IMG/VR virus record: IMGVR_UViG_3300047550_000409
Span: 1-41,029 of that record
Origin: a virus
Direction: 5' to 3' (one strand)
Length of the DNA stretch: 41,029 bases
Below the pieces are notes generated by a model. It was not told the DNA's origin. It did no database searches and saw only the letters and a program-made list of their open reading frames with translations. Of the stretch, positions 20,444 through 41,029 are shown in pieces (the first letter of the stretch is position 1; each line of letters starts with the position of its first letter). A program made the position numbers and the translations under genes.

Positions 20444-21496
20444 ATGCGATTCCACGTAGTAAGCCTGCCTCACACACAGACTACTCTAGAATATACATCA
20501 TGCGCGTTTACCGAGAAGGTAAGGCGCTTTGCCATGATGATGGAGATGCTAGGGCACGAGGTGTACCTGTACTCTGGTGAGCAAAATACAGTCAAAGTAC
20601 ATGAACACATACCCTGTATCTCTGAAGAGATGAGGGTTGAGTCCTTAGATGGCAAGCATTACACTCAAGGCTCATTTGATTCATCGCTTCCACACTGGCA
20701 GTACTTTAATAATTCAGTAATGAATGAGATGGAAGAGCGCATACAGCCTAAAGACTTTATCTGTCTGATTGGTGGATATAGTCAGAAAGTAATAGCTGAT
20801 GCTTTTCCTAATCATATCTCAGTAGAGTTTGGCATAGGATATCCTGGCACATTTGCAAAGTTTAGAGTATTTGAATCATATGCCTGGATGCATAGCATCT
20901 ATGCTCAACACCGATTAGCTTCAGAGGTAGACGGCAACTTCTTTGATGCTGTAATCCCAGGCTATCTAGAGCCGCACATGTTTCCGCTTCAAGAGAAGAA
21001 GGAAGATTACTACCTATTCATCGGGAGACTGATTGATAGGAAAGGTTATCGCATAGCACAAGAAGTATGCGAAGCTTTAGGTAAGCGCCTAATCTTAGCT
21101 GGAGCTGGTCCTCAAGATGGCTATGGTGAGTTTGTTGGTGTTGTTGGCCCAGAAGAAAGAGCTAAGCTTTATGGTGGGGCTATAGCAACATTTGTTCCGA
21201 CTCAGTATATAGAACCATTCGGTAATGTAGTTATCGAATCTCATATGTGTGGAACCCCAACTATCACAACTGACTGGGGTGCGTTCACTGAAACCAATAT
21301 CGAGGGACTAACAGGGTATCGCTGTAGAACACTAAAAGAATTCTGTGAAGCTGCTGAGAAAGTAAAAAGCCTTGACCCAGCAACTATCAGAAGTACGGCT
21401 GTAAATAAATATTCATTAGAAGCAATCGCCCCTCTATACGAGAAATACTTCAGAAGGCTAGAAACCCTCTGGGGTGACGGATGGTACGAAAGGTAA
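20444..21496 (+). CDS. GT-B glycosyltransferase (GT4-like)
   Basis: A 350-residue protein with a two-Rossmann GT-B layout. The N-terminal half has a Gly-rich start and the acceptor-side domain. The C-terminal half has YLFIGRLIDRKGYRIA, LILAGAGPQDG and the E-x7-E motif in EPFGNVVIESHMCGTPTI (sugar-nucleotide binding), then TDWGAFTETN. This is the retaining GT4/GT1 pattern. The substrate cannot be read from sequence. It lies between fibre and neck genes, paired with the GT-A enzyme at 16056, which suggests glycosylation of virion proteins or of the host surface. The start follows AAGGGGACATA. Confidence 0.85.
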   Translation: MRFHVVSLPHTQTTLEYTSCAFTEKVRRFAMMMEMLGHEVYLYSGEQNTVKVHEHIPCISEEMRVESLDGKHYTQGSFDSSLPHWQYFNNSVMNEMEERIQPKDFICLIGGYSQKVIADAFPNHISVEFGIGYPGTFAKFRVFESYAWMHSIYAQHRLASEVDGNFFDAVIPGYLEPHMFPLQEKKEDYYLFIGRLIDRKGYRIAQEVCEALGKRLILAGAGPQDGYGEFVGVVGPEERAKLYGGAIATFVPTQYIEPFGNVVIESHMCGTPTITTDWGAFTETNIEGLTGYRCRTLKEFCEAAEKVKSLDPATIRSTAVNKYSLEAIAPLYEKYFRRLETLWGDGWYER

Positions 21497-27894: not shown

Positions 27895-27923
27895 TTGACA
27901 TCTTCTCCTATGTCTAGTATAAT
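27895..27923 (+). promoter_or_regulatory. Consensus sigma-70-type promoter, replication block
   Basis: TTGACA (27895-27900), a 17-base spacer, then TATAAT (27918-27923): both hexamers match the consensus. It points toward the replication genes. About 30 bases past the expected start, a GC hairpin interrupts AT repeats, so transcripts may be attenuated or be short RNAs. Confidence 0.88.
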
Positions 27924-28013
27924 ATATATATATATATATATATAATATATAATATATAAGACCCCTACGGGGTCTTTATATTATTATATAATATATATAA
28001 TATAATTATAGCA
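27918..28013 (+). repeat. AT-repeat tract flanking a GC hairpin
   Basis: About 40 bases of TA/ATA repeats, then AGACCCC (27959-27965)-TAC-GGGGTCT (27969-27975), then about 35 more bases of similar AT repeats. The two AT tracts are largely complementary and extend the hairpin into one long imperfect cruciform. The stretch 27868-28081 has no gene. It could be an attenuator, a DNA-unwinding element of an origin, or both. Confidence 0.75.
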
Positions 28014-31853: not shown

Positions 31854-32007
31854 TGAGACATGGCAGATTATAGAACACCTAGTTGGGATGGGTTACAAAG
31901 TTACATCGACCAGAACAGAGGACGGGACGCTTACGGTAACTCTGTCCGTCCCACTACTATCGACGAAAGGTATCCGCGTTTCTCCACCCAGTTCGAAGAC
32001 GACGTAA
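31843..32007 (+). CDS. Possible overlapping small ORF (54 aa)
   Basis: This ORF overlaps both neighbours in another frame. It encodes MENDETWQIIEHLVGMGYKV then TSTRTEDGTLTVTLSV, a sequence that looks like a helix plus a beta hairpin rather than random readthrough. There is only a weak ribosome site. If real, it is an alternate-frame gene over the 5' part of the Nmad1-like gene. Its last residues (VSPPSSKTT) look less natural. Confidence 0.3.
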   Translation: MENDETWQIIEHLVGMGYKVTSTRTEDGTLTVTLSVPLLSTKGIRVSPPSSKTT

Positions 32008-32261
32008 GGATTGTATATGATGAACTTATGTCAGTTCTCCTAGCCAAGCATAAAGATTATGGCCCCAAGAATATTGCTGACGCACCGGGTGGCGCTCTCA
32101 ATGGCTTGCGTGTACGAATTCATGACAAGATAGCACGCATCAACAACTTGATTGATAGACATAGCGACCCTATGTATGAATCAATCGAGGATTCATTCAA
32201 AGACTTAGCTAACTATGCCATCATAGCACTACTAGTATTGAGAGACAAGTGGGATAAGTAA
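31860..32261 (+). CDS. Nmad1/DUF1599-like protein
   Basis: A 133-residue protein whose second half matches the DUF1599 (nucleotide-modification-associated domain 1) pattern: LLAKHKDYGPKNIADAPGG, LRVRIHDKIARINNLI, and YESIEDSFKDLANYAIIAL. Family members sit in phage nucleotide or DNA-modification contexts, though their reaction is not settled. GGAGAA lies about ten bases before the ATG. The first 40 residues are less conserved-looking and are overlapped by another ORF. Confidence 0.72.
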   Translation: MADYRTPSWDGLQSYIDQNRGRDAYGNSVRPTTIDERYPRFSTQFEDDVRIVYDELMSVLLAKHKDYGPKNIADAPGGALNGLRVRIHDKIARINNLIDRHSDPMYESIEDSFKDLANYAIIALLVLRDKWDK

Positions 32262-34298: not shown

Positions 34299-34473
34299 TT
34301 CTCCTCCAGTCTTTCATGATTGCGGGTGCGTTAGCGCACTCGGTTACTGACATATGATAGTGCCATACTGTCTTGCTTTTCAACTTATTAGATACAGTAT
34401 AGTACTCGCCAGCTAGTGGTTTAGCACATGCTGAACAGAACTTTATATCTTTTAGTTGTAGTTGGGTAGCCAT
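34195..34473 (-). CDS. Small Cys-containing protein, unknown function
   Basis: A 92-residue product starting at an ATG overlapping the previous stop (TAATG). Residues 1-55 look genuine: KDIKFCSACAKPLAGEYYTV and WHYHMSVTECANAPAI, with a possible Cys/His metal site. The last 35 residues are basic and overlap the next gene, so the real end may differ or the overlap may be a frameshift. No family is recognised. Confidence 0.5.
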   Translation of the reverse strand: MATQLQLKDIKFCSACAKPLAGEYYTVSNKLKSKTVWHYHMSVTECANAPAIMKDWRRSGQERRAKAHNRTEARLQTSDGYSWDTDNSVPMR

Positions 34474-34874
34474 TAGTGCCAGCCCTTCTTCTTAAAGTGT
34501 GCCCACGCTTGACAAGGGGTCTTGTATCTATGATAGATATACTCAAGACCCCTGTCTATCTGTTGCGTAGGGGGTGTGCTTGGGTCAAGTCCCAATATCT
34601 GTGGGATACCGCCAGCATTTTTACCTGCTACTTTTATTTTATTGTATGCGTCAGGGTTCCATGCTGATTCCTTACCCCACAGTTTATTGAGACAAGACAT
34701 CTGTTGGTCACGCCATACGCCAAGTCTATCGTATGCGTAACCTTTGCTATCCTCAACCGACCAAGTTTTTTGAAGAGGGTACTTGTGCGGAGACTTGAGA
34801 GGTTCGACAATATAAATTGAAGTTACTGCTACAACTGCTACGATTAGCGTTGTCTTCTTTACAAACTTTCCCAT
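34473..34874 (-). CDS. Membrane-anchored or secreted transglycosylase-like protein
   Basis: A 133-residue protein. Residues 1-7 are basic and 8-24 hydrophobic (TTLIVAVVAVTSIYIV), a signal or anchor segment. The rest resembles the C-terminal SLT/transglycosylase-like domain of actinobacterial secreted proteins: MSCLNKLWGKESAWNPDAYN (catalytic Glu in KES), AGGIPQILG, then IDRGLEYIYHRYKTPCQAW and an AHFKKKGWH end. It would cut glycan strands at the cell wall. It lies far from the lysis cassette, among early regulators, so a role in entry, host-wall remodelling or superinfection exclusion is possible. It overlaps the WhiB gene by 16 bases. Confidence 0.78.
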   Translation of the reverse strand: MGKFVKKTTLIVAVVAVTSIYIVEPLKSPHKYPLQKTWSVEDSKGYAYDRLGVWRDQQMSCLNKLWGKESAWNPDAYNKIKVAGKNAGGIPQILGLDPSTPPTQQIDRGLEYIYHRYKTPCQAWAHFKKKGWH

Positions 34875-35188
34875 ATGCGAACCCTCTCCCTTATTCTTTC
34901 AGCCAACACAACAGCGTCCATTACTAGTGTTGATGTCGTGCTTCTACCTGCTGCTACTAGTCGCTCACCTGGAAGCGAGCCACCCCATATGCCATTCTCT
35001 AGGTTATTATAGCGCATGCCTATCTCTAGGCAATCGTCTTTGACAGGGCAACGCTCGCAGAAACTTAGCGCATATATGGAGTTGTCCATAAGTTGCTCGG
35101 TCTCTTTGACAGATGGCTTGCCTTGTTTAGTGAACTCGGGAAACCATAAGTCGGGGTTGCTGTGTCCAGTACAAGCACCTGTTAGCAT
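34859..35188 (-). CDS. WhiB-like transcription factor
   Basis: A 109-residue protein. One Cys at position 6, then FCERCPVKDDCLEIG (C-x2-C-x5-C), supply the four ligands of the Wbl iron-sulfur cluster. GIWGGSLPGERL is the family's G[VI]WGG turn, followed by a basic C-terminal helix. Wbl proteins bind the principal sigma factor and redirect transcription; phage copies can repress or rewire host programmes. This gene is the main reason to place the host in Actinobacteria. It is near the middle of the leftward early block, which fits a regulator. Confidence 0.9.
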   Translation of the reverse strand: MLTGACTGHSNPDLWFPEFTKQGKPSVKETEQLMDNSIYALSFCERCPVKDDCLEIGMRYNNLENGIWGGSLPGERLVAAGRSTTSTLVMDAVVLAERIRERVRIWESL

Positions 35189-35189
35189 G

Positions 35190-35432
35190 TTATCCTCTGT
35201 TATGTGTAGGTGAATAGATTGGAAAGATTGTAACTATTCCAGTCAGTAACTCTGCCCACTTGCGGGCTTCGTCTACTGTACTGAATGTTCCATACATGAC
35301 GGAGCGGTTGGCTACATCAGTAGGAAATACTAGTACTGAGTAACCTGCCACCAGCATACCTGCTAGTGGCTCGGCTACTGCGATATTGTTATGCGCTGAA
35401 GACAACGCTTGTGTATCCGTCGAGTCGGTCAT
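35190..35432 (-). CDS. Small early protein, unknown function
   Basis: An 80-residue alpha/beta protein (MLVAGYSVLVFPTDVANRSV then FSTVDEARKWAELLTGIVTI). The pattern strand-turn-helix-strand resembles small uncharacterised actinophage proteins. It starts inside the upstream gene (44-base overlap) and its stop lies one base from the WhiB ATG. No catalytic motif is visible. Confidence 0.55.
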   Translation of the reverse strand: MTDSTDTQALSSAHNNIAVAEPLAGMLVAGYSVLVFPTDVANRSVMYGTFSTVDEARKWAELLTGIVTIFPIYSPTHNRG

Positions 35433-35682
35433 GAGTTGTAATCAATCCCTTCTTGCCATTGAGGTGGCGGTATGTGCCGTCGCCTAGTGATACCCACATA
35501 GACTTAGGCTTGAAGCGTGCTTGAGTTGGTAGTGCCTTGAGAATTGTACCACGAGGGTAGTAGTTCTCTGTCTGCTCAACCTCAGTTACGAGTGAGCGTA
35601 GTTCGTCAGCGATTGAACTGAACGAGTCGATACGATACGCTAAATCATCTAGCGCATCTGCGATGAGTGTTGCGTTAGTCAT
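35389..35682 (-). CDS. Small early protein, unknown function
   Basis: A 97-residue product with an acidic helical first half (LIADALDDLAYRIDSFSSIA) and a beta second half (PKSMWVSLGDGTYRHLNGKK). An AAGGAAT ribosome site precedes the ATG. The 44-base overlap with the next gene suggests translational coupling. Function unknown. Confidence 0.55.
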   Translation of the reverse strand: MTNATLIADALDDLAYRIDSFSSIADELRSLVTEVEQTENYYPRGTILKALPTQARFKPKSMWVSLGDGTYRHLNGKKGLITTHDRLDGYTSVVFSA

Positions 35683-35702
35683 TATATTCCTTTGTTAGTT
35701 GG

Positions 35703-36611
35703 TTAGATTAGTGTGTCTTGGTACTTATTATACACCCTTACCCATTGGTTGTCAAAGTCAAACTCTGTGTGAGACTTAGCGGACTTGGGTGTATAGCACA
35801 TACAGTCTTGATAGTTAGCCCAACACGACATACATGCCTCACAGTATTGGCAATACTCTGCGGATATATCTATGTCTATAAGAGCCTCGCACATGGGGCA
35901 TTGGTCGATAACAAGGTAGCCGTCGTTGTCTGCCTTAGCAGATAGTTCTTGGTAGTAGGCTTGCTCGTCAGCGAACGATGAGTCATATGCGATTGTGTCA
36001 ATGATAGGGTGAGCGTCGGCTTTATAGTATGAGTGTTGCGTATAGGTACTACGCTTGTAACTTGAGTTGCTCCACCATACTCCGTTGTCGTCCCAATGAC
36101 CTAACTTCTCGTTGATGAGATAGAGTTGGTATTGAGCCTTAGGATTGGTGGTGAGCACGGCTATCTTACTTCCGCTTGCCCACCCCTCAATCATGCGGTA
36201 CAGATTTTCATCTTCCAGAGCGCAGACACCACCGAGTTTAGGTAGTGTATCCTCTGCGAAGATACGCGTATCACTACGCTTGTCATCTTTCCCTATGAAT
36301 GTATCTAGCACACCATTGTGTGCGAGTACAGTATCAGCATCGTCACCCACTTGGAATGGGTGGCAGTTATCCTCATTCTTTACGCCATGCGTAGCATAAC
36401 GAGCATGCCATATAGCGTAGCCGTGTGGATATTGTTGGCGCATATGAATGAACTTACCCACCGCCTTACGAGCAGACATGGTACGATAACGGAATATCTT
36501 GCCGTCAATTATCATGGCGAACCCGTAGCCGTGTGGATTAGAACACGCGCCTTCTGTAAGTTCCTCGCGCTTTGGTATAGCGTTAGGCTTACAGACAACT
36601 AATAGACACAT
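35703..36611 (-). CDS. Class II glutamine amidotransferase with C-terminal zinc domain
   Basis: A 302-residue Ntn-hydrolase. Met removal would expose Cys (MCLLVVCKPNAI), the nucleophile that releases ammonia from glutamine. IWHARYATHGVKNEDNCHPF and LAHNGVLD are the glutamine-binding Arg/His and Asn-Gly motifs. The catalytic fold covers about 1-190. The end (about 235-280) is Cys-rich: CPMCEALIDI, YCQYCEACMSCWANYQDCMC, suggesting zinc binding. It is ten bases downstream of the amidoligase gene, implying one pathway in which ammonia or glutamine-derived amide is used for amide-bond chemistry. The acceptor is unknown. Confidence 0.85.
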   Translation of the reverse strand: MCLLVVCKPNAIPKREELTEGACSNPHGYGFAMIIDGKIFRYRTMSARKAVGKFIHMRQQYPHGYAIWHARYATHGVKNEDNCHPFQVGDDADTVLAHNGVLDTFIGKDDKRSDTRIFAEDTLPKLGGVCALEDENLYRMIEGWASGSKIAVLTTNPKAQYQLYLINEKLGHWDDNGVWWSNSSYKRSTYTQHSYYKADAHPIIDTIAYDSSFADEQAYYQELSAKADNDGYLVIDQCPMCEALIDIDISAEYCQYCEACMSCWANYQDCMCYTPKSAKSHTEFDFDNQWVRVYNKYQDTLI

Positions 36612-36621
36612 AACACCCCCT

Positions 36622-37839
36622 CTAGGCGTTGATTAGTGGTCGGTTATCTAGTGATACGCTAGGCACTTTGGACATGCGTAGGTATAGGTTAGGGTACTTG
36701 CCGTTGTTGCTGGCTACCCAATCAGCGAACCACTCCCACTTGAGCATGCCCAACTTGACATCGGACACGGACAAGTCGCGTGTGTATTCTACTGAGGCGT
36801 GGCATAATTCGAGTGCCGTCATGACACCCTCGCGCTTCATATTGCCACGGAAGAAGCGCAACTCTAGTGTGTAATCGTTGTTGGTATTGACCGCCGAGTA
36901 TCTCTCGGTGCGGAAACCAGCGTGTATCTTCTCACGAAGATTGAACTGCGGTATGCCCCACTCGTCGGGCTTGTACACATCATCAAAGCGAGCGAAGCGT
37001 GAGTTCTTACGCCCTGCTAACTTCATCATCTCGCGTGGGTTCTTATAGATTAGTGATAAGAACCTATGTGTGTGAGCACCCGACTTGAACGCAGCACGGG
37101 ACACATGGACATGTAGTCCACATGTATCGGTATCCCACGAGCGAGCACCATAGTTGGTGCGTAGGTGTTCGATATAATTCCATAAGTCGGTGGCTTGTTC
37201 GTATGCTCCTAGCGTATGTGGGTGTGTCACCAACTCAAAGCCCGTGCCCTCAATGGAGCCGTCTGACTTGAGATAGCACACATTGTCATTCTCTAGTGGC
37301 TCAACACCACTAACCGCCATGCTGTATAGGTTGTTAGTAATGTCGGGGAAGGTCATCTCTAACTCAAAGCCCATGTATAACCCGTGCGGGTCTACACCAT
37401 GAAAGGCAGGGTTAGGCTTGTAAGAATACTGATGTATCTTACCAGCACCACCGCCACATGAGCACGACGCGTCGCCGTCGGGATAATACTCATCACAATC
37501 GTCACAGTATGAGGCGTTGTCACTAGTACAATGCTCGCACCATGACTCGCGCCCTACTGTATAACTACCCGTGCGGTTGTCGTCATAGGTTTCGTCACAA
37601 CTGTCACAATGAAACGAATTATTTTCCCAGCAACCCTCGCACCACATACTATCCTGTACTGTGTACCATGAGTCGCTATCTGTACCCGACCATTCGCAAC
37701 GCTCGCACATGCGGTAGCAATCGCTACATACTTGGTCGCCGTTGTCTATCGTGAGTGAGTCATCTTGACTTATCTCAGAGTTACACTCAGCACAATTTAC
37801 TGTGTCGGGTGTATCGTCATCATCTATCGGCACTATCAT
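36622..37839 (-). CDS. Zinc-finger/amidoligase fusion (Amidoligase_2-like)
   Basis: A protein of about 405 residues. The first about 130 residues contain roughly eight CxxC-type pairs (CAECNSEI, CERCEWSG, CEGCWENN, CDSCDETY, CDDCDEYY), a multi-finger array. The rest matches the ATP-dependent amidoligase family: MGFELEMTFPD, a SDGSIEGTGFELVTHP motif, CGLHVHVSRAAF and ELRFFRGNM. These enzymes join an amine to a carboxylate. Start: ATG 37839 or the GTG three bases upstream, behind an AGGGGGG run. Together with the adjacent class II amidotransferase it forms a likely two-enzyme unit. Possible targets are cell-wall peptides, host proteins or a small metabolite; sequence does not decide. Confidence 0.82.
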   Translation of the reverse strand: MIVPIDDDDTPDTVNCAECNSEISQDDSLTIDNGDQVCSDCYRMCERCEWSGTDSDSWYTVQDSMWCEGCWENNSFHCDSCDETYDDNRTGSYTVGRESWCEHCTSDNASYCDDCDEYYPDGDASCSCGGGAGKIHQYSYKPNPAFHGVDPHGLYMGFELEMTFPDITNNLYSMAVSGVEPLENDNVCYLKSDGSIEGTGFELVTHPHTLGAYEQATDLWNYIEHLRTNYGARSWDTDTCGLHVHVSRAAFKSGAHTHRFLSLIYKNPREMMKLAGRKNSRFARFDDVYKPDEWGIPQFNLREKIHAGFRTERYSAVNTNNDYTLELRFFRGNMKREGVMTALELCHASVEYTRDLSVSDVKLGMLKWEWFADWVASNNGKYPNLYLRMSKVPSVSLDNRPLINA

Positions 37840-37854
37840 CACCCCCCTAGTGAT

Positions 37855-38043
37855 TTAGTATCTTATTACTTCTCCCCATAATTTTTTATCAAGCAAATCC
37901 TCTAACTCTTGTATCTGCTTGTCAAGTCGCCACATTTCAGACTCATCTACCATGAGTAATCGGTGGCGAGCCATCTGAAGCACGGCACTAATAGTGACGG
38001 CTTCATTCCAACTCAACTTTACTTTACGCCGTAATTTTATCAT
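37855..38043 (-). CDS. Small basic helical protein, unknown function
   Basis: A 62-residue protein, helical throughout (KVKLSWNEAVTISAVLQMAR then DKQIQELEDLLDKKLWG), with a basic N terminus. It starts within the stop of the upstream gene (ATGA). A promoter-like sequence overlaps its first codons (38034-38062). No family is recognised. Confidence 0.55.
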   Translation of the reverse strand: MIKLRRKVKLSWNEAVTISAVLQMARHRLLMVDESEMWRLDKQIQELEDLLDKKLWGEVIRY

Positions 38044-38062
38044 ACTTGAGCCTTGTTGTCAA
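38034..38062 (-). promoter_or_regulatory. Minus-strand promoter candidate before the amidoligase genes
   Basis: On the minus strand TTGACA (38057-38062), 17 bases, TAAAAT (38034-38039). The predicted start lies just inside the 62-residue gene, so it would mainly serve the amidoligase/amidotransferase genes downstream. It overlaps coding sequence, which lowers certainty. Confidence 0.5.
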
Positions 38063-38222
38063 GCCTAGCGTAACTCTGTTCAATCATCATGTTGGAAATC
38101 TTATCGCGTAGGTTATCCACATAGGCTTGTAGCCCTGTGAAGCCTTGTTGCTTGAGCCTTGCGCTCTCGTTGCGTAGGCTTGTGCGTAGCGTGTCCAATT
38201 CTGCTGGCGTTAGTACCAGCAT
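38040..38222 (-). CDS. 60-residue helical protein, unknown function
   Basis: I set the start at ATG 38222, about ten bases after the predicted transcription start of the promoter at 38239-38267. The longer frame up to 38306 would run through that promoter and the tRNA-like element, so I reject it. The product (MLVLTPAELDTLRTSLRNES and a helical remainder) is charged and helical. Unknown function; perhaps a small regulator. Confidence 0.55.
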   Translation of the reverse strand: MLVLTPAELDTLRTSLRNESARLKQQGFTGLQAYVDNLRDKISNMMIEQSYARLDNKAQV

Positions 38223-38238
38223 GTAATCGCTGTCGCTG

Positions 38239-38267
38239 ATAGTATCACACCCTTTCAAGCGTGTCAA
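38239..38267 (-). promoter_or_regulatory. Minus-strand promoter, early block
   Basis: TTGACA (38262-38267), 17 bases, TACTAT (38239-38244) on the minus strand. The expected start is near 38232, leaving a leader of about ten bases before ATG 38222. Spacing and the consensus -35 are good. Confidence 0.72.
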
Positions 38268-38286
38268 GTCTGCGGGCTTTCCGCGT

Positions 38287-38337
38287 GTCCCGTGTCGGAC
38301 TCGCACCGACTACCTATCCGTACCCTATGGACGGGAC
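38287..38337 (-). other. tRNA-like relic: acceptor stem plus T-arm only
   Basis: On the minus strand GTCCCGT (38337-38331) pairs perfectly with ACGGGAC (38293-38287), seven base pairs like an acceptor stem. Next to the 3' strand sits GTCGG-TGCGAGT-CCGAC (38310-38294), a 5-bp stem with a 7-base loop close to a T-loop. Only 20 bases lie between, too few for D and anticodon arms. It may be a decayed tRNA, a tRNA-derived attachment core or a regulatory hairpin pair. It sits in a gap between genes and a promoter. Confidence 0.5.
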
Positions 38338-38346
38338 TACCTAATC

Positions 38347-38676
38347 TTACTTATCGTGTATGTTGAACGCTTTGGCGCGTGGTTGTGCGTTGGCATGTAG
38401 TTGCGCTAGGATAGCGCGTTCTTGTGCTTCATCTAGGTTGGGCGTTAGTACGCGCTCCCCTGCCATGATAGCCCTGTGCGATTTACGCGCTAGGCGTACT
38501 ACTTTACCATGTACTAAGGGCGCAACAGTACGGGTATTCCCGTGCCTATCTGTAATCGTCACAGGTGAGCATTGTGCTCCCGTGAGATTATAGTGGCGCT
38601 TACCCCATTCGCGACTAGCGCGAACAGTTCGCAACTGTCTTACACCTACACCCGAACCCGCGTACGGGTTAGGCAC
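38347..38676 (-). CDS. First early gene, basic protein of unknown function, GTG start
   Basis: A 109-residue basic protein (RQLRTVRASREWGKRHYNLT and VVRLARKSHRAIMAGERVLT). The GTG at 38676 follows AAAGGAG with six bases between, a strong site, and the promoter at 38713-38742 lies just upstream. Its position as first leftward gene suggests an immediate-early role. No family is recognised. Confidence 0.65.
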   Translation of the reverse strand: MPNPYAGSGVGVRQLRTVRASREWGKRHYNLTGAQCSPVTITDRHGNTRTVAPLVHGKVVRLARKSHRAIMAGERVLTPNLDEAQERAILAQLHANAQPRAKAFNIHDK

Positions 38677-38712: not shown

Positions 38713-38742
38713 ATTCTATCATAGTGCTTTACTGCTTGTCAA
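38713..38742 (-). promoter_or_regulatory. Minus-strand promoter nearest the early genes
   Basis: TTGACA (38737-38742), 18 bases, TAGAAT (38713-38718) on the minus strand. The start would be near 38706, about 30 bases before GTG 38676 with its strong ribosome site. The extended -35 cTTGACAag is shared by several early promoters here. Confidence 0.8.
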
Positions 38743-38748
38743 GTAGGC

Positions 38749-38855
38749 GGGGAGAGTATCGGCGTGTCGGTCAATTCTAGCGTGATACTCACGGGCGACC
38801 CGCTGTTACTAAGTATCTAATCGCTAGGCATGAAACCTAGACCTAAACTCTCCCC
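38749..38855 (-). promoter_or_regulatory. Structured leader with competing stems
   Basis: GGGGAGAGT (38749-38757) pairs perfectly with ACTCTCCCC (38847-38855), closing about 107 bases. GAGTATC (38754-38760) can instead pair with GATACTC (38784-38790). CTAGCG (38777-38782) can pair with CGCTAG (38822-38827), which competes with the hairpin CTAGG-7-CCTAG (38824-38840). CGGG/CCCG forms a further small hairpin. Transcripts from the promoter at 38875-38903 would carry it as a leader. The mutually exclusive stems suggest a switch, riboswitch-like or protein-bound. It is not a tRNA: no proper arms. Confidence 0.55.
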
Positions 38856-38874
38856 TATTTACTTGTTACGCCAT

Positions 38875-38903
38875 ATTGTATCGGGTTCCCTTGAACTTGT
38901 CAA
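38875..38903 (-). promoter_or_regulatory. Minus-strand promoter upstream of the structured leader
   Basis: TTGACA (38898-38903), 17 bases, TACAAT (38875-38880) on the minus strand, near consensus. The transcript would start near 38868 and run through the 107-base structured element before reaching the first early gene. Confidence 0.8.
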
Positions 38904-39044
38904 GCCCGCCTATCTTGTCGGCGTGTCGTGTCGTACCTTGTGAGTACTTGATGACGGGAGAATCATCTCACGCCACCTACCCGCTTGTCAAGCCCCGACA
39001 CCCCACAACTTTTGTGAGATAGGTCACACCATAACGGGGCGGGT

Positions 39045-39235: not shown

Positions 39236-39290
39236 CTCAGGAAAGCCTCAGGAAAGACTCAGAAGGCTCTCAGGAAACTCTCAGGAAGGG
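39236..39290 (+). repeat. Five tandem 11-base repeats (CTCAGGAAAGC-like)
   Basis: Exact 11-base period, five units: CTCAGGAAAGC, CTCAGGAAAGA, CTCAGAAGGCT, CTCAGGAAACT, CTCAGGAAGGG, followed directly by six Ts. One unit is about one helical turn, so the set could be an iteron-like protein array, a packaging (pac) site near terL or an RNA-binding leader. No CRISPR: units are too short and there are no spacers. Confidence 0.82.
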
Positions 39291-39626: not shown

Positions 39627-41029
39627 ATGGGTAGAAAGCCCGGTAAAGTTGATATCCCTATGGCTGAAGCCAAGGAGAAGGTGCTCCTCCAGCTAGCCCA
39701 GGGGGCCACCATCACCCAGGCTATGGCCTCGGTCAACCGCAACGACGTGACTTTCCGTCAGTGGAGCCTCAAGGATTCTGACTTCAAGGATAGAGCCGAC
39801 AAGGCCCGCCTCGAAGGCAAGGGCGTCAAGGCTGACTTCAAGAACCTCAAGGACATCTCCTTTGAAGACTTCTCTGAACAGTTCCTTGACACCAAACTCT
39901 TTGACCATCATAGGACATGGATTGATTTAGTAGAGGGGCGCGAGCCCCGGTGGATGCACCCGGCGATGACATACGAGCCCGGCGCGGCTAACCGAGTCCT
40001 GATTAACGTTCCGCCCGAGCATGCCAAGTCCACGGTGATTACGATTAACTACGTCACCTACCGACTAGCCATTGAGCCGAACATTCGTATCATCCTAGTC
40101 TCTAAAACCCAAGGCATGGCCCGCAAGTTCCTCTCGGCAATCAAGACCCGCCTGAGCCATCCTTCCTGGATTAAGCTACAGACGGCCTTCGGTCCGCAGG
40201 GCGGATACAAGGCCGATTCTCAGACTTGGTCTGCTGACATGATTTACCTGGGCACAGGACGTGACTCAGGTGAGAAAGACCCTTCAGTGCAAGCTCTAGG
40301 GTTCGGTAGTCAAATCTACGGCGCACGTGCAGATTTGATTATTCTAGACGATGTTGTGATGAACTCAAACGCCCATGAATGGGAGAAGCAAATTGAATGG
40401 CTTCAAAAAGAAGTTATCACACGCTTAGGCCGACACGGGAAACTACTTATCGTAGGGACCCGTGTTGCGCCAGTAGATTTATACAAGATGATTCGGGACG
40501 GTCAACAATGGACTGGCGGTAAATCGCCATTCACATACTTCGCCCAACCAGCAGTCTTGGAGTTCGATGAGAAACCCTCTAACTGGAAAACCCTTTGGCC
40601 GTATACTGACAGGCCTGAAGGTGAAAAAGATGAAATCAACGAATTCGGACTTTACCCGAAGTGGGACGGCCCTGCGCTTTTTACTCGCCGCAGTGAAGTG
40701 GCACCTTCCGTATGGGCGATGGTCTACCAACAAGAAGACGTCATCGAAGATAGCATATTCGCGCCTGCAGCAGTCGCAGGATGTGTTAACGGTATGCGAA
40801 AGCGCGGACCGCTTAAACCAGGTGCTCCAGGCCACCCCAAGCACATCGAAGGCTCCTACACAGTCATAGGCTTAGACCCTGCCATGACAGGCAATACCGC
40901 AGCAGTTGTAGCTACATACAACCGTAGCGACTCAAAGATTTATGTACTAGATGCAGTCAACATGGTTGACCCAACTCCAATGAAGATTAGGACGCTCATT
41001 GAAGAGTGGGTTGAAAAGTACCGTCCTCA
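39627..41029 (+). CDS. terL: Terminase large subunit, N-terminal and central part, with HTH domain
   Basis: This copy gives the true start, ATG 39627 after GGGGGGA, and runs off the window. Residues about 12-60 form a helix-turn-helix-like unit (AKEKVLLQLAQGATITQAMA then SVNRNDVTFRQW) like those of small terminase subunits. The Walker A variant is PPEHAKST at 129-136, and the Walker B-like LIILDD is near 237-242. No separate small subunit gene is visible near terL. The first about 460 bases are visibly more GC-rich than the rest of the genome, which suggests recombination or a chimeric join. Spliced to the left copy the protein is about 622 residues. Confidence 0.9.
   Translation, partial: MGRKPGKVDIPMAEAKEKVLLQLAQGATITQAMASVNRNDVTFRQWSLKDSDFKDRADKARLEGKGVKADFKNLKDISFEDFSEQFLDTKLFDHHRTWIDLVEGREPRWMHPAMTYEPGAANRVLINVPPEHAKSTVITINYVTYRLAIEPNIRIILVSKTQGMARKFLSAIKTRLSHPSWIKLQTAFGPQGGYKADSQTWSADMIYLGTGRDSGEKDPSVQALGFGSQIYGARADLIILDDVVMNSNAHEWEKQIEWLQKEVITRLGRHGKLLIVGTRVAPVDLYKMIRDGQQWTGGKSPFTYFAQPAVLEFDEKPSNWKTLWPYTDRPEGEKDEINEFGLYPKWDGPALFTRRSEVAPSVWAMVYQQEDVIEDSIFAPAAVAGCVNGMRKRGPLKPGAPGHPKHIEGSYTVIGLDPAMTGNTAAVVATYNRSDSKIYVLDAVNMVDPTPMKIRTLIEEWVEKYRP
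40085..41029. repeat. Right copy of imperfect terminal direct repeat
   Basis: It matches bases 1-945, about 90 percent identical by hand count, with no indels. The differences stop abruptly at 40919; the last 110 bases are identical to 836-945. That sharp change fits an assembly path switching from one strain variant to another, or a recombination boundary. Confidence 0.95.

Follow-up and report, generated by a model that had tools for sequence, protein, structure and literature searches.

Gene organization of the locus

The window, a stretch of 41,029 nucleotides, comes from a virus of a lake bacterium, an actinophage, and carries two adjacent enzyme genes on the minus strand: an amidoligase and, 10 bases downstream, a class II amidotransferase (GATase). 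Both belong to a leftward gene block that runs from ~38676 to 33410 (Table 1), in which conservation of orf88 and orf109 is restricted to close relatives. A sequence-only reading had proposed a candidate envelope- or peptide-modifying system at 34473–37842. The two enzyme genes, their positions and the HVHV and ELRFF motifs of the amidoligase were all recovered, as were the membrane-anchored SLT-like protein and WhiB within the leftward block, but the interval itself fell short, since a start at the SLT-like gene takes in only part of that block.

Table 1. Coordinates of the features discussed in the text
Feature	Position	Strand	Description
orf62, orf88, orf109	37855-38676	-	unknown genes heading the leftward block; open reading frames
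Amidoligase	36622-37842	-	406 aa, GTG start
Class II GATase	35703-36611	-	302 aa
orf97	35389-35682	-	unknown; accompanies the pair in part of the lineage
orf80	35190-35432	-	unknown; position in the leftward block and conservation in close relatives
WhiB-like regulator	34859-35188	-	PF02467, 37.9 bits
SLT/aggregation-promoting-factor-like muralytic protein	34473-34874	-	N-terminal hydrophobic anchor; NCBIfam NF052397
Promoter-like TTGACA-17-TATAAT	35727-35755	-	sigma-70-type; inside the GATase 3' end, facing orf97-orf80-WhiB-SLT
Promoter-like TTGACA-18-TAGAAT	38713-38742	-	ahead of the leftward block; 11/12 match, extended -10
DUF1599 protein	31860-32261		'nucleotide modification associated'
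Glycosyltransferase	20444-21496		

The promoter-like site within the GATase gene, a prediction only, matches the consensus at 12/12 positions, and 17 of the 20 closest relatives listed have a site at the corresponding place (11–12/12). With this site ahead of the WhiB/SLT part, the early, single operon that had been suggested for these genes is at most putative. Across the region, 15 promoter-like sites were found against 11.8 expected from shuffles, which is no significant surplus. A search of the window for RNA elements and tRNAs returned none, and PADLOC matched no known defence system.

The amidoligase and its zinc array

The amidoligase scores 23.3 bits against Pfam PF12224 (Amidoligase_2) over residues 200–350, above the curated cut-off of 22 bits. 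Its structure model (pLDDT 85) best matches YbdK (Z 12.3) and glutamine synthetases (Z 11–12 for YbdK and these) and also matches gamma-glutamylmethylamide synthetase and glutamate-cysteine ligase. Key residues, including those of the HVHV and ELRFF motifs, are invariant across 34 aligned relatives (GxExE, DxS, E203, GxHxH, R249, R278, N319 and TxExR). Sequence and model together assign the protein a glutamine-synthetase fold with metal/ATP residues, and it is a predicted ATP-dependent amide ligase.

The N terminus of the amidoligase (residues 1–157) holds seven CxxC pairs and one CxC, close to the eight or so CxxC pairs counted earlier. These pairs (C17/20, 39/42, 46/49, 68/71, 79/82, 102/105, 113/116 and 127/129) make up a four-unit LIM-like zinc array. 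Shuffles of this region gave a mean of 1.5 CxxC and reached seven in 2 of 5000 cases. The family profile matches LIM domains of solved proteins with an E value of 2.4e-5; Pfam LIM (PF00412) recognizes a Ruminococcus relative (26.7 against a cut-off of 22.9) and leaves the window amidoligase itself unmatched. The array spacing, CxxC-x18-CxxC-x3-CxxC, is one residue off the usual LIM linker.

LIM-like arrays are protein-binding modules, and the array may accordingly hold a host or phage protein, on which the ligase would amidate or extend a carboxylate much as Pup ligase does. Conservation of the array suits such protein or peptide modification: ten of its cysteines are invariant from phages to Ruminococcus, a conservation as strict as that of the active site. 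The presence of PafA and Dop among the Foldseek matches of the model also points this way. A conserved small protein partner across lineages was not found, however, as orf97 accompanies the pair in 7 of 10 records and DUF960 only in Ruminococcus elements. We regard this explanation as rather unlikely.

The class II amidotransferase

The GATase passes the curated cut-offs of both PF13522 and PF13230 (GATase_6/GATase_4), with 29.7 and 25.8 bits against 27 and 23. M1-C2, R71, T74, G76, N82, H84, P85 and H98-N99-G100 are invariant in 32 relatives. By sequence and modeling, the protein is thus a class II (Ntn) enzyme in which the nucleophilic N-terminal Cys, the oxyanion hole and the residues of the glutamine pocket are all intact. 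The model resembles GlmS/GFAT and EgtC, with GlmS ranking above EgtC.

A C-terminal cysteine cluster had also been noticed in the GATase, and it consists of eight residues (C238, C241, C254, C257, C260, C263, C270 and C272). Shuffles of the whole protein reached its CxxC count in 5 of 5000 cases. From the matching zinc modules of the two proteins, a complex or shared target had been proposed. The modules are real, but the match does not hold as a rule: the cluster is confined to actinophage-type lineages, and it is missing from the GATases of Ruminococcus and Methylophilales, even though the Ruminococcus ligases do have the zinc array.

The EgtC match bears on the chemistry of the pair. EgtC is a gamma-glutamyl hydrolase with the class II GATase fold, and its match to the GATase model means that the fold does not prove ammonia transfer. 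GS-fold ligases are known to pair with GATase-fold hydrolases, and in EgtA/EgtC a GS-fold ligase works with a class II GATase-fold enzyme. The ligase could couple an amine to glutamate or to some other amino acid, with the GATase-like hydrolase removing or trimming this gamma-glutamyl tag, as in EgtA/EgtC and PuuA/PuuD. Structurally, the ligase comes closest to YbdK, a carboxylate-amine ligase, with plant glutamate-cysteine ligase another high-scoring match; a GATase pocket suited to a gamma-glutamyl group whose alpha groups are free is kept either way. Several observations nevertheless make such tag chemistry unlikely. In NCBIfam the GATase matches GlmS and PurF rather than EgtC, and among the fold matches EgtC, a hydrolase of a small-molecule (ergothioneine) pathway, ranks below GlmS. 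Kinship of the ligase with YbdK at the sequence level was rejected, as hhalign gave a non-significant probability of 9 and aligned the GxELEM strand only.

The two genes are inherited together

The amidoligase and GATase form a real unit. Conserved adjacency, for which a search of phage genomes had been suggested, was found: wherever a viral relative offers room for it, the GATase lies directly 3' of the amidoligase, usually after a gap of 9–19 bases. The same order recurs in Marvin-type mycobacteriophages, OM43 phages, a mycobacterial plasmid and multi-copy Ruminococcus mobile elements, the last arranged as DUF960–amidoligase–GATase–recombinase. Among 44 related-phage records, ten have both genes, 34 have neither and none is discordant. 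GxExE, GxHxH, TxExR, the MC start, RxxTxG and HNG are kept in 75 phage, 60 genome and 3 annotated-phage pairs. The sequence-only reading had named missing co-occurrence and loss of active-site residues as observations that would count against it; the genes co-occur, and the catalytic residues are intact across homologues.

Distances between amidoligases correlate with those between GATases: r reaches 0.89 for the phages and 0.92 for the bacterial loci, against at most 0.14 and 0.35, respectively, in 500 permutations. Linked genes diverge together even without complex formation.

The pair is accessory cargo, as it is absent from Planktophila phage E7 and sits beside recombinases in Ruminococcus. 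One C. difficile phage carries an amidoligase of the family without a GATase and one Bifidobacterium phage a GATase without an amidoligase, so either gene can be kept alone. A seemingly natural fusion of the two in an Atopobiaceae MAG (L062) was dismissed as a frame change relative to the near-identical L055; in such a fusion, moreover, the GATase would no longer have its Cys at the N terminus.

Neighboring genes

WhiB and the SLT-like gene lie outside this unit, since Planktophila phage E7, the closest cultured relative, has both in the same order (sigma-WhiB-SLT) but lacks the pair. The SLT-like protein scores 62.5 bits against NF052397 (cut-off 40), and the catalytic Glu of its LWxxESxWNPxA motif is retained in relatives. 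Its gene occurs in phages both with and without the pair, which speaks against its proposed membership of the system. orf97 was present in none of the four pair-lacking records tested. As an obligatory third partner it was rejected because three pair-bearing records lack it.

Two other genes of the phage, encoding the DUF1599 protein and the glycosyltransferase, would fit a role in nucleotide or DNA modification. Phage E7, however, has the DUF1599 gene but not the pair, and no base-modifying enzyme set was found among the proteins scanned. We consider this role very improbable.

Relation to known pairs

Phage annotations have listed pairs of this type for years, and a wall-modifying or superinfection-blocking role has repeatedly been ascribed to them. 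Cluster S mycobacteriophages, including Marvin (gp105/gp106), likewise have adjacent Amidoligase_2-like and class II GATase genes, with 31–35% identity to the window amidoligase and about 30% to the GATase. The GATase cysteine cluster is shared, whereas the zinc region of the ligase is shorter (4 CxxC), the gap is 79 bases and the genome backbone is another. In the Methylophilales (OM43) phages MEP401/MEP402, the two genes overlap by a few bases (PMC10580990); identity is 22–29%, there is little or no zinc array and the GATase is without the cluster. The Ruminococcus pairs have the same order and LIM-like zinc amidoligase but differ in being chromosomal, with relaxase, resolvase and integrase genes as well as DUF960.

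The RIO-1/phiEco32/LUZ24-like podovirus cassette shares the amidoligase, the class II GATase and the predicted amide chemistry, its pair sitting among early or replication genes (PMC5498523, PMC3890496). That cassette has up to seven genes, including an ATP-grasp, a second ligase and a gamma-glutamylcyclotransferase; Pfam matched none of these three among 30 window proteins scanned, a set in which only the smallest genes of the leftward block are not represented.

A proposed amide-forming pathway

Class II GATase domains have an established role in handing over ammonia in GlmS, PurF and AsnB. Based on sequence and models, we lean, if narrowly, toward the pair being a two-protein, glutamine-fed amide-forming enzyme. 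The GATase would hydrolyse glutamine and pass ammonia to the ligase, which would activate a carboxylate with ATP and close the amide, while the zinc array would dock the substrate or the partner. The product may benefit the element by altering some component of the infected host. Modification of a protein would be compatible with this scheme, the target alone differing.

The most plausible target would be a carboxylate of the envelope or of a peptide, for instance in keeping competing phages out. For the cell wall in particular, peptidoglycan modification and superinfection exclusion have been proposed in print for related phage pairs, among them the phiEco32/LUZ24/RIO-1 cassettes (PMC5498523, PMC10580990). 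Here, the muralytic SLT-like neighbor in the leftward block might help to remodel the wall. Yet that gene is retained by pair-lacking phages, the ATP-grasp and gamma-glutamylcyclotransferase are missing from the proteins scanned, and the published support likewise consists of genome context (PMC5498523, PMC10580990). We hold the wall to be a possible target, though a doubtful one. The envelope target of the earlier reading stays plausible and has precedent, but it is not set apart from protein, peptide or small-molecule targets. A 2009 paper by Iyer is cited as the source of the published proposal. The pair spans Gram-positive and Gram-negative hosts, which is awkward for one fixed wall substrate.

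The present analysis adds that both genes are passed on as one unit, that within one phage family this unit is accessory, and that multi-copy mobile elements of Ruminococcus carry it too; the zinc array is as constrained as the active site. With considerable reservation, we suggest that the LIM-type zinc ligase and class II GATase may be a mobile two-gene module of actinophages and gut Firmicutes elements, putatively directing amidation to a host protein or the wall through the zinc array as adaptor. Marvin-type phages of the laboratory strain M. smegmatis mc2 155 carry the pair, and cultures exist of two relatives that lack it, Planktophila phages E7 and F5, so its function is open to direct test.

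Conservation of the amidoligase–GATase pair

In viral genomes the amidoligase gene is followed by that of the class II glutamine amidotransferase (GATase) wherever the contig continues (43 close and 79 wider loci, overlapping sets), and in the few of these loci with no GATase the contig ends at most 151 bases away. The same order occurs in the mycobacteriophage Marvin, the Methylophilales phage MEP402, ctgrD200 and an M. abscessus plasmid; on the plasmid, the adjacent gene carries the annotation 'glucosamine 6-phosphate synthetase'. In bacterial genomes, profiles identified a GATase at 67 of 80 amidoligase loci, and several of the remainder have a Met-Cys ORF in its position. Of 44 records with a shared major capsid protein, many of them fragments, both genes occur in 10 and neither in 34, and no record carries just one of them; of the seven of 39 kb and above, five carry the pair and two lack both genes. 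The conserved adjacency that the sequence-only reading asked for, and co-occurrence in relatives, are supported. Amidoligase and GATase distances correlate strongly, as expected for co-inherited genes. Two exceptions were found, a C. difficile phage amidoligase lacking both zinc array and GATase, and a Bifidobacterium phage with a GATase and no amidoligase. In C. difficile phage AR1086-1 (locus L049, 2674-4863), an amidoligase without zinc array adjoins an RlaP-type RNA-repair nucleotidyltransferase.

In Ruminococcus the pair is present in several copies per genome (loci L053-L131). DUF960 often stands ahead of it (54 of 79 loci from the genome set), serine or tyrosine recombinases lie downstream and, in many cases, there is a relaxase on the opposite side. 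The pair is therefore cargo of mobile elements generally, beyond virions. A literature search, with most subscription journals outside its coverage, found no paper describing this setting.

Domain architecture and proposed activity

The amidoligase passes the PF12224 cut-off, and its predicted model (pLDDT 85) adopts a glutamine-synthetase fold from residue 151 onward, matching YbdK (Z 12.3), glutamate-cysteine ligase (11.5), and glutamine synthetases and gamma-glutamylmethylamide synthetase (about 11). Seven CxxC pairs and one CxC lie within residues 1-150, many more than in shuffled sequences and in line with the roughly eight CxxC pairs of the sequence-only reading. Among solved proteins, the family profile picks out LIM domains (E 2.4e-5), a relative in Ruminococcus scores above the Pfam LIM cut-off, and Foldseek gave weak matches to LIM domains of LMO2, LMO4 and LHX4; because Cys-rich sequences may inflate such matches, we term the array LIM-like. 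Ten array cysteines and the catalytic residues are invariant in 34 phage and bacterial relatives.

The GATase passes both PF13522 and PF13230, and its invariant residues include the Cys that follows the initiator Met, R71, TxG, N82, HP and HNG. Its model has a confident core and a low-confidence tail; the best fold matches are GlmS/GFAT, with EgtC also among them. The C-terminal 8-Cys cluster is retained in actinophage lineages, including Marvin and locus L043, and is absent, among the relatives compared, from GATases of Methylophilales phages and Ruminococcus.

The established chemistry of both families, the intact residues and the near-obligate adjacency lead us to favour, by a modest measure, glutamine-fed, ATP-dependent amide formation. 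The main rival, a ligase partnered by a gamma-glutamyl hydrolase, appears rather improbable. Amide formation could be directed at the wall, which is less likely than not, or, with somewhat lower probability, at a protein or peptide; these estimates overlap with those for mechanism. For related pairs, a wall/superinfection role is already in print, as a suggestion or hypothesis in the portions consulted of PMC5498523 and PMC10580990, and worded as fact in PMC11318856. Phage amidoligase–GATase pairs are a known kind; what appears to be new here is that the LIM-like array is strictly conserved, that the GATase carries a Cys cluster and that the pair is spread on mobile elements.

Neighbouring genes and candidate regulatory sites

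The SLT-like protein is anchored and of muralytic type, with many relatives in Streptomyces phages. The sequence-only reading had placed it in one system with the pair; we rule it out as a member, since its gene occurs in pair-bearing phages and also in phages that lack the pair; among the latter is Planktophila phage LanE43AprE7 (E7), which keeps sigma, WhiB and SLT in unchanged order. A consensus promoter match within the GATase 3' end is conserved in close relatives, and this predicted promoter could drive the WhiB/SLT part separately.

Further features of the window
Feature	Position	Strand	Remarks
GT4-type glycosyltransferase	20444-21496		
Candidate promoters, perfect TTGACA-17-TATAAT	27895-27924; 28033-28005	+; -	gap between 27551 and 28158
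DUF1599 'nucleotide modification associated domain 1' protein	31860-32261	+	also in E7
Leftward gene block	about 38676 to 33410		orf109, orf88, orf62, amidoligase, GATase, orf97, orf80, WhiB, SLT-like protein, small genes
Repeated CTTGTCAAG palindromes	38735, 38896, 38984 (also 37918)		stretch 38735-39000; overlap minus-strand -35-like TTGACA boxes
Four tandem copies of 11-base unit CTCAGGAAAGC	39236-39287		intergenic, before terminase

Judged by motif, the two opposite-strand sites are possible promoters facing both ways, and the CTTGTCAAG palindromes with their TTGACA boxes a possible operator/promoter array. The DUF1599 protein and the glycosyltransferase may hint at modified DNA.

Probable host and record ends

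The window is a virus record of 41,029 bases, and its terminase, portal and capsid match those of tailed phages. The host is probably a freshwater Nanopelagicales actinobacterium, because the large terminase and portal share about 80% identity with those of E7 (OX376640), isolated on 'Ca. Planktophila' (PMC10202952). The terminase large subunit spans the record ends (39627-41029 and 1-1411), and a single E7 gene is matched in overlapping parts by 39627-41027 and 2-1408; the record therefore appears to be a circular or permuted genome that was cut.
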